Assembly: GCA_014706295.1 (NCBI GenBank)
Contig: JACSVZ010000001.1
Coordinates: 118,324,763 to 118,388,762 of the forward strand
DNA: 64,000 nt
Origin: Lycocorax pyrrhopterus obiensis
Taxonomy: Eukaryota > Chordata > Aves > Passeriformes > Paradisaeidae
Reading direction: 5' to 3'
Position 1 is the stretch's first letter. Every line of letters starts with the position of its first letter. The notes beneath the pieces are model-generated. The model did no database searches. It worked only from the letters and a program-made list of their open reading frames with translations, and was not told the origin of the DNA. This document shows positions 50,101-53,100 of this stretch, piece after piece. The translations under genes were made by a program, and so were the position numbers.

Positions 50101-53100
50101 ATTCTGGGAATGATGGGCAGCTGCTGCTGCAGGGAGAGCACGTCCAGCACCCACAGCTGGCACAGGGCGGTGACAATGTCCCGGGGCCAGCCCTCCATGC
50201 CAGGCTCTCCTTTGCTGGATGTCCCAGGGCCAGCCCTCCACCCCAGGCTCTGCTGGATGTCCTGGGGCCAGCCCTCCATCCCAGGCCCTCCTTTGCTGGA
50301 TGTCCCAGGGCCAGCCCTCCACACCAGGCTCTGCTGGATGTCCTGGGGCCAGCCCTCCATGCCAGGCTCTCCTTTGCTGGATGTCCCGGGGCCAGCCCTC
50401 CATGCCAGGCTGTCCCTTGCCCGTTCCCTGCGTGGTGGCGTGCCCGGGAGCGCTGCTCAGCAGGTTTGCTGTGTGTCCTCTGCTCGATGTTTACAGACTG
50501 TTTCTGTTGACTGCCACAGGTTTACACCATACGAGTGGTATAACCCCCACCCGTGCAACCCAGACTCAGACGTGGTGGAAAACAATTTTACTTTACTAAA
50601 TAGTTTCTGGTTTGGAGTTGGAGCTCTCATGCAGCAAGGTACACCGGTTACACTTCGGTCTCGCACACGTCCCACAGTCTGCTCAAGGGCTTCTGTGCTG
50701 GTAAACTCCACCCTCTGTAAATGCAGCATGTACTGTAAAACCTGATCTCACACACCCAGAGTAGCAGGAGGGAGCAAAGCCATGTGCCACTGCCACAGGG
50801 GAACCTGTGCAACCCCCACCAGGAGGAAGGAGGGCAAGCATCTGAGAGAAGGGGGAGCAGACAGGACCACACAGGCGTTGTGCAGCTGAAATGTGAATTA
50901 ATTGCAAGAGGGATATGAAGTGCTTCATGCTGAAGCTGAGTTTATTAGTATAAGAGGTTTGGCAACAGGAAAATGTTGGGCTCCGTCCCAACACAAACAG
51001 CCTTAGCTGCCCTAGGAGAACTGTTCCAGCTGCCAAACAAGGAAAGATGCTCTTTCTCCAGAAGGGTTGTTGAGTTTGTAGGCACTTGTCAAACATGTTG
51101 TTTAAAACAAACACCAAACTCTTGTTTTCTATGGCTTTTCTGCAGGTGTGAGTCCCATCCCTCTGTAAATGCATCCAACCCCAGAAGCCTTAACCCAGTC
51201 ACAAACCCCTGTTGCTGATGATTTTGGAAAGAGCTGACATTTAACTCAGGTGCCAAGGAGGGGCAGTGAAGCTTGCTCCATGTGGGAACTCAAATAGACC
51301 TGTGTACTAAACACATTCGTTTATGGTATTTATGTTCGAAGGTTTCCAATTAAATCACTTTTCACCAAAACTGGGCTCCACTGAAAACAGAGAAAATGTT
51401 TTCTGACAAACATTTCACGTTGAATCAAAGCTGAACAAAAAAGACCCCACTCCACGACAACCAAAAAGGCAAAGCCCAGCAGTACCTTGGTATTAAATTC
51501 CCAAACATTTAAGTAAGGAATGTAAAACCATCTCTGCAGTCACACAGGTACAGTTTATTCTTTCCTCTTTAACAGACATGAGTAGCAGTAAAAGAAATTT
51601 TAAAATAAAGAGGATTTTTTCCTACATATGGTAGAGAATAAAGTTTATATTGTACCTAAGATGCACTTGCTTTTAGTGGTGCATTATTGTATGGAGAGGA
51701 TATAGAGCTTCCCCACAGAAATTGCTTTGAAGGAGGTTGGATGAAAGAAGAGCATTTCTGCTTTGTTTTGGAGCTTTTTGGTTTTGTTTTCCTTCCAATT
51801 TGTCAGTGAAACACAGGCTGAGGTTTTACAGTATCAGGCAGGTGTGTGTATCGAACTGTGGTTGCCCTGTGTGTGAAAGTGCCCCAGGATTCTGTGTTTC
51901 CTGTCCTGCCTTTTTTGGAGTTTACCATCATCCACAGCAAACTGTGGGATGCAGTGTCTGCTCGTTACCACTACCTTGGGTACATGACAGTCAGCCCCAA
52001 CCAGACTCTGCTTGTCTTTTAAGAAGATTCAAAACAAAACCAAAGAAAGACAGAAAAAGAAAGAAAGAAAGGAAAAAAACCCAAAAAACATTTGTAAGGC
52101 AGCACAAATGTTTCCATGTGCAAACTTGTGGTGTGATTGTCTGTGCATCATGGTCACGTGAAGAGTTTGGACATGATGTGAGTGGTGGTGGAAGTCTGGG
52201 TCTAGCGTTGCGCTCCTCCTCCTTGGCAGCAGCTGCTCGTTATGCTTGACTGGAAGCCACTTGTGATTAAATTTTAAAATGTGATGATCAGACTTTCTCT
52301 TTTCTACAGAGCGTGAGCAAAGTCTGGATCAGGATTGGCTGTCATGTCTGCCATAAAAAGGCACTAGAGAGACTTCAGCAAGTATTGTCTCTGCCCCCGA
52401 GTCTTGCTGGCAACATTTTGATTTAGATGCTGCTTCCCCTGTTTTTCCCCTGGAAGTCTCAGATGTGTTTGCATCCTCTGAAAGCATCCAAACAGGGCGC
52501 ATTTCATCCAATCCATCCAGGGAAGCTGTCACTGTCAGAAAGGAGAGCTGTCCCTCAGAGCCCAGCTCAGCCAGGGACGGGGCAGAGAGCGCCAGGGTGG
52601 AGCAGGGGGATGGAGCAGATCCCGGGCTGTGCCCACAGCCTGGGCAGCAGGGAAGGGGGGATTCTGCCCCACTCAGGTGAGACCCCACCCGCAGAGCTGC
52701 CCCAGCCCTGGGCCAGCAGCACAAGGACCTGGAGCTGCTGGAGAGGCTCCAGAGGAGGCCCCGGAGCTGCTCCAGGGCTGGAGCCCCTCTGCTCTGGAGC
52801 CAGGCTGGGAGAGCTGGGGGTGCTCACCTGGAGAGGAGAAGGCTCCAGGGAGAGCTCAGAGCCCCTTGCAGGGCCTGAAGGGGCTCCAGGAGAGCTGGAG
52901 AGGGACTGGGGACAAGGGATGGAGGGACAGGACAAGGGGGAATGGACTCTGACAGAGTAGGTTTAGATTTGATATTAGGAAGGAATTGTTCCCTGTGAGG
53001 GTGGGGAGGCCCTGGCACAGGGTGCCCAGAGCAGCTGTGGCTGCCCCTGGATCCCTGGCAGTGCCCAAGGCCAGGCTGGATGGGGCTTGGGGCAGCCTGG

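Follow-up and report, generated by a model that had tools for sequence, protein, structure and literature searches.

An intronic sequence at positions 51964-52010 of the window, a stretch of 64,000 nucleotides from Lycocorax pyrrhopterus obiensis, very probably pairs with the end of an upstream exon to form the Q/R-editing substrate of GRIK1 pre-mRNA, the device known from GluK1 and GluK2. The GRIK1 editing fold described here is a further copy of that device. The part that may be new is a second conserved element of the same intron, here called block 2 (52316-52348), which could be a rival partner for the editing complementary sequence (ECS) or a decoy exon.

The best protein match is GRIK1 (GluK1/GluR5), with 603 bits vs. 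575 for GluK2 and 538 for GluK3. Kainate-receptor pore exons lie on the + strand, as do all features discussed below, and read through in frame at 50520-50638, 55021-55238, 58706-58931, and 63127-63377. The first of these exons, numbered exon 12 in a first-pass annotation of this DNA, carries the M2 pore loop and the Q/R site (translation FTPYEWYNPHPCNPDSDVVENNFTLLNSFWFGVGALMQQ(G); best match GluK1). It ends in ATG CAG CAA G, with the Q/R codon CAG at 50632-50634 and the predicted edited adenosine at A50633, and is followed by the GT of the 5' splice donor (50639-50640). The GT...AG intron, home of the ECS, the flanking arms, and block 2, spans 50639-55020 and leads to the next exon (GSELMPKALSTRIV..., 55021-55238). 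The coordinates, the Q/R codon, and the donor given in the first-pass annotation proved right when judged by the sequence, the co-fold, and the in-frame exons. Tandem units of ~60 nt (ccagccctccatgccaggct...) were noted by eye at 50200-50420, directly upstream of the Q/R exon. Repeat-like stretches of similar wording (cctggcacagggtgcccaga...), which we take to be CR1-type retroelements, occur at 52700-53170, 56160-56620, 59040-59260, and 61900-62140; the first of them attracts the Q/R exon in energy scans.

Co-folding of 50590-50665 with 51955-52015 yields a structure of -40.2 kcal/mol with 43 pairs, of which exactly 33 (31 Watson-Crick and two G-U) join 50606-50651 to 51964-52005. This reproduces to the base the duplex of approximately 33 pairs that had been proposed for this locus and, with the editing codon in a central loop, supports its reading as a kainate-receptor Q/R-editing duplex. 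The 5' arm of the stem occupies 50601-50651, and the 3' arm, which is the ECS, occupies 51964-52010; both arms are recovered by unguided folding (see below). The CAG codon lies unpaired in a 3x4 loop. It had been described as the only internal loop, but a 1x1 mismatch (50626/51988) and a 4x2 loop (50642-50645) are also present, and the same duplex, previously divided into five ordered blocks, consists by strict count of eight uninterrupted runs. The 7-bp helix 50635-50641/51972-51978, previously reported to span the splice donor, is found in the co-fold. A51982 in the ECS lies opposite the Q/R codon, 1,349 nt from A50633, and is predicted to be edited as well. The fold leaves A50616, in a Gly codon six codons upstream of the Q/R site, as a bulge.

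Pairing is not confined to the ECS. Between 50601-50710 and 51916-52010, it extends past the ECS, first in a stem of 15 pairs interrupted by one mismatch and then in 12 consecutive perfect pairs, so that the first-pass annotation had the core of the duplex right but missed two intronic stems. In the proximal-intron arm (50668-50710), 50668-50683 pairs with 51936-51951 and 50696-50710 with 51916-51930; the distal arm (51916-51951) immediately precedes the ECS. Both flanking stems also appear in the output of an independent repeat finder, in nested order with an outer 13-nt perfect inverted repeat (50731-50743 with 51821-51833), which is a possible outermost extension. The flanking stem starts 35 nt from the edited site, with its 12-bp part 66 nt away, and it is kept in a 1.9-kb fold (50520-52420) with 30.9 pairs. 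An equivalent exists in GRIK2 of this genome, where the best partner of the proximal intron within the whole intron is the stretch directly 5' of the GRIK2 ECS; under each of three scorings, this pairing was reached by none of 300 whole-intron and none of 1000 local shuffles. This arrangement matches the "editing inducer" stem described for mammalian GluK2 (PMC5654063).

In the proposed mechanism, the ECS, ~1.35 kb into the intron, would fold back onto the last part of the Q/R exon, with the flanking stem formed next to this pairing by 51916-51951 and 50668-50710. The flanking stem would serve as the docking site of ADAR2, and the enzyme would deaminate A50633 within the central loop, recoding CAG (Gln) as CGG (Arg). 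We infer ADAR2 binding, deamination in this species, the level of editing, and its effect on the channel from the mammalian genes.

The complementarity between exon and ECS, taken alone, is no better than chance. Shuffled introns reached the ECS alignment score in 210, 438, and 309 of 500 cases under three scorings, and when the intron was scanned by energy, the ECS was not among the 12 best windows (best window, -46.7 kcal/mol; mean best of 200 shuffled introns, -42.2 kcal/mol). With the query extended to 50560-50710, the corresponding counts were 76/500, 47/500, and 4/500, and with 50560-50780 they were 217/1000, 43/1000, and 1/1000, the second of these last three relating to an alignment in another register. 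Under strict scoring of the long query, a second site in the intron has an equal score (27.0), and scores of up to 28.0 occur in the remainder of the window. The long-query energy scan places the ECS windows (-88.4 kcal/mol) ninth and tenth among the windows listed, and in 40 shuffles, the best window averaged -81.9 kcal/mol and went down to -93.3 kcal/mol. These figures bear on the possibility that the pairing of 51964-52005 is fortuitous and that the true complement lies elsewhere, for instance at 51001-51044, which scores 25 vs. 23 for the ECS in strict alignment with the Q/R exon, or in the GC-rich sequence near 52600-53180, where GC-rich stretches lead by duplex energy (best -109.3 kcal/mol; scans favoured the region near 52580-53000). 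The first-pass annotation had itself named a better-scoring complement elsewhere in the intron as evidence against its duplex, and such complements formally exist. They are outweighed because the ECS is conserved in GRIK2, the duplex is longer than its core, and unguided folding finds it. None of the alternative complements coincides with a block conserved in the GRIK2 intron among the eight best blastn matches, whereas the ECS contains an identical core, and the unguided fold of 50520-52040 selects the ECS as the partner of the exon; a chance pairing is thus highly improbable.

Conservation between paralogues helps to establish the Q/R-editing duplex. A 61-nt ECS query against the whole genome (1.10 Gb in 1,120 contigs) returned two places at E <= 0.001, namely itself and one other (91% identity over 42 nt), which sits between the GRIK2 Q/R exon and the next exon. 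When the GRIK1 and GRIK2 introns were compared by blastn, the ECS ranked first among the blocks (79% over 80 nt, E 1e-10), and its 27-nt core, 51972-51998, is identical in GRIK2; among the eight best matches, the second block had an E of 0.001, and the next best an E of 0.58. This shared element supports the reading of the duplex as a Q/R-editing structure. In GRIK3, which is not known to be edited, the ECS is absent at blastn sensitivity (best match E 0.08). In pairing with the GRIK1 ECS, the GRIK3 exon would nevertheless equal the GRIK1 exon (-41.2 vs. -39.1 kcal/mol), and therefore it is the ECS rather than the exon end that is special. The whole-genome search with the GRIK1 ECS returned no AMPA-receptor locus, an Rfam search gave three matches, none of which reached the cut-off of its own family, and an exact scan for a 24-nt ECS core yielded 0 hits in viral and 0 in prokaryote contigs. 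Complementarity alone proves a poor guide to distant ECSs, and comparison of paralogous introns a good one.

Folding without guidance leads to the same partner. The partition function of 50520-52040 gives 32.8 expected exon:ECS pairs; when 50721-52040 was shuffled 40 times, no partner window for the exon exceeded 31.0 pairs, and none reached 32.8. When only the spacer (50721-51900) was shuffled, the exon:ECS pairing was kept in all 24 cases. The donor region 50637-50643 has a mean pairing of ~0.73. In longer folds, the exon keeps 9.4 pairs with the ECS (50520-52420), and the pairing falls to 0 (50520-53200).

The locus shows the features of the kainate-receptor Q/R type: a GRIK1 gene with genomic CAG at the Q/R position, an intronic ECS more than 1 kb downstream (33 pairs around the codon at 1,349 nt), conservation of the ECS with GRIK2, and a flanking inducer stem. 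The distance of 1,349 nt does not agree with a GluA2-type short-range ECS, which lies within a few hundred nucleotides. In GluA2, the ECS is only ~0.3 kb away, and editing approaches completion and acts as a gate for splicing. For mammalian GluK1 (GluR5), the Q/R-site editing substrate was reportedly described by Herb et al. in 1996. What GluA2 (GluR-B) has in common with GRIK1 here is the combination of an exon-intron duplex with a separate inducer stem (PMC5654063).

The closest parallel is mammalian GluK2, which shares with GRIK1 here the same exon end, a far-downstream intronic ECS, and a flanking inducer stem. According to PMC5654063, the Q/R stem of mouse GluK2 has its ECS 1885 nt downstream, two flanking stems, one upstream and one downstream, act as editing inducer elements, and editing in HeLa cells drops from 23% to 5% when the downstream stem is disrupted. 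GluK2 is a paralogue, and its ECS is more distant than that of GRIK1 here (1885 vs. 1,349 nt), in line with the first-pass annotation, which had given ~1.9 kb for mammals and placed the arm closer here; moreover, only the downstream flanking stem was found in GRIK1, in contrast to the two of GluK2. Mammalian GluK1 represents the orthologous gene and site, and a 3' inducer stem is likewise present. Its conserved 3' stem, listed in Table 1 of the same paper (PMC5654063), comprises 73 nt and 27 bp and lies 70 nt from the edited site, compared with 35 nt for the stem described here and 66 nt for its 12-bp part.

Known editing sites in GRIK2 extend the comparison to single nucleotides. Human GRIK2 is reported to be edited at intron sites +41, +2027, and +2054 (PMC4053846), and GRIK2 of this genome, its exon boundary being positioned on the assumption of equal exon length, has A at +41, +2030, and +2057, so that the 27-nt spacing of the latter two equals that of the human sites. 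The A at +2057 is the ECS adenosine opposite the codon, the counterpart of GRIK1 A51982. Silent editing has been described at G615 of human GluK2 (PMC8257547), which corresponds to GRIK1 A50616. The survey of human sites in PMC4053846 states that 45 of its sites (76%) show high sequence conservation in chicken and zebrafish; the passage does not name them individually. Counting against the editing reading, the text of a chicken-embryo editing survey does not mention GRIK (PMC4449034).

The first-pass annotation had also proposed that the fold hides the 5' splice site until editing is done. The donor does lie within the 7-bp helix, but the human GluK1 data argue against strict gating: PMC8257547 describes Q/R editing of GluK1 and retention of the next intron in human brain RNA as rather independent and, for GluK2, attributes the link between editing and retention to the ECS being present for longer. 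Where the ECS is intronic, as in GRIK2, sites that are spliced more efficiently are reported to be edited less (PMC6724681). By analogy with these genes, editing and splicing would be engaged in a kinetic race rather than controlled by a gate. One could go further and suppose that the duplex mainly controls the Q/R exon donor and that editing is a by-product, since the donor is enclosed in the helix of the co-fold and is weak (0.35 vs. up to 6.7 elsewhere in the intron, by a simple matrix). Such a role is very improbable given that GluK1 editing and intron retention look independent in human brain, that the recoding adenosine occupies the middle of the loop, and that GRIK3, which has the same exon end and in which the ECS was not found, manages without it.

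Besides the Q/R-editing duplex, the intron contains block 2 (52316-52348), the second block conserved with GRIK2, which is complementary to 51982-52012 of the ECS and was missed as a conserved alternative partner in the first-pass account of the duplex. Its identity between paralogues was matched by none of 200 shuffles and by none of 1000 within a 600 x 600 neighbourhood. In both paralogues, block 2 is the best ECS complement in the downstream intron; the complementarity was reached under strict scoring by 3/1000 shuffles in GRIK1 and 0/1000 in GRIK2, and in local folds by 4/200 and 1/200, respectively. By eye, block 2 resembles the sense strand of the Q/R exon. A 92-nt query around it recovered from the whole genome only a 30-nt piece of its own locus and missed the GRIK2 copy, so that this result has no bearing on whether block 2 is unique. 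No description of block 2 was found in the open literature, most subscription papers lying outside its scope; the literature search also found no competing structure for the Q/R substrate, and six 14- to 18-nt strings from the ECS and block 2 had no match in paper texts. Block 2 is probably a functional element; most likely it either competes for the ECS or begins a decoy exon.

As a competitor, block 2 would be a conserved anti-ECS acting alongside the established mechanism: transcribed ~330 nt later than the ECS, it would pair with 51982-52012, release the ECS from its pairing on the exon side of the edited site, close the editing window, and keep editing partial. This tentative reading is possible, though less likely than not, and draws on the conservation and complementarity described above as well as on duplex energy, in which block 2 (-42.1 kcal/mol) surpasses the exon (-39.1 kcal/mol) in pairing with the ECS; the GRIK2 counterpart reaches -52.2 kcal/mol. 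Furthermore, predicted exon:ECS pairs drop from 32.4 to 8.6 once the 3' end of the folded transcript passes 52335-52350. However, 33/1000 GRIK1 shuffles attain the complementarity under laxer scoring (0/1000 in GRIK2), the predicted loss of pairing is unspecific, with 17 of 36 shuffled downstream sequences also pushing the exon:ECS pairs below 10, and the donor remains paired (0.69-0.70) in the predicted second state. Because nearly half of the shuffled sequences behave likewise and the donor stays paired, the loss predicted by folding is no proof of a role for block 2. Two suppositions were dropped on these grounds: that block 2 frees the splice donor, and that the loss of exon pairing in folding predictions counts in favour of block 2.

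The other candidate role concerns splicing. An acceptor-like pyrimidine tract with CAG (52293-52309) precedes block 2 by 7-8 nt in both GRIK1 and GRIK2, at the same offset. If the acceptor at 52309 were used, block 2 would begin a decoy, or poison, exon, the ECS hairpin would mask or modulate that acceptor, and the complementarity to the ECS would then serve splicing. By a simple hand-made matrix, the acceptor-like site ranks third of 387 AGs in the GRIK1 intron and first of 222 in that of GRIK2, ahead of the true acceptors (rank 26 and 8, respectively). Its use would lead to an early stop in both genes, and donor-like sites follow it at 52677 in GRIK1 and at intron positions 2436 and 2453 in GRIK2. 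A cassette exon that carries an early stop is reported for human GRIK2 in PMC8257547, and PMC13078869 includes the gene in a list of those whose skipped exons are linked to decay; neither passage gives the position. A decoy exon is nonetheless rather unlikely, considering the simplicity of the hand-made scoring matrices, the distance of the good GRIK1 donor (52677), which is 368 nt away and near a repeat-like stretch, and the lack of conservation of the exon bodies past block 2 in the alignment of GRIK1 with GRIK2.

Taken together with the inducer stem, the exon, ECS, and block 2 could be viewed as parts of a switch. It is conceivable, if doubtful, that kainate-receptor introns harbour a three-part RNA switch that has survived since the GRIK1/GRIK2 split and sets partial editing. 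Pairing of the ECS with the exon would turn editing on, pairing of the ECS with block 2 would turn it off or mask the decoy exon, and the inducer stem would persist in either state. On this view, the partial editing of GluK1 and GluK2 would be determined by the order of transcription together with the decoy acceptor.

For the Q/R-editing duplex itself, exact coordinates are now given, with A51982, A50616, and A51953 as further predicted edited positions, and the device fits the view that it originated before GRIK1 and GRIK2 split. A GluK2 editing-deficient mouse was obtained by deletion of 600 bp at the ECS (PMC10504484), and this deletion may also have removed the counterpart of block 2, if mice have one. 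Should a conserved element compete for the ECS, this built-in competition may set the partial editing of GluK1 and GluK2.
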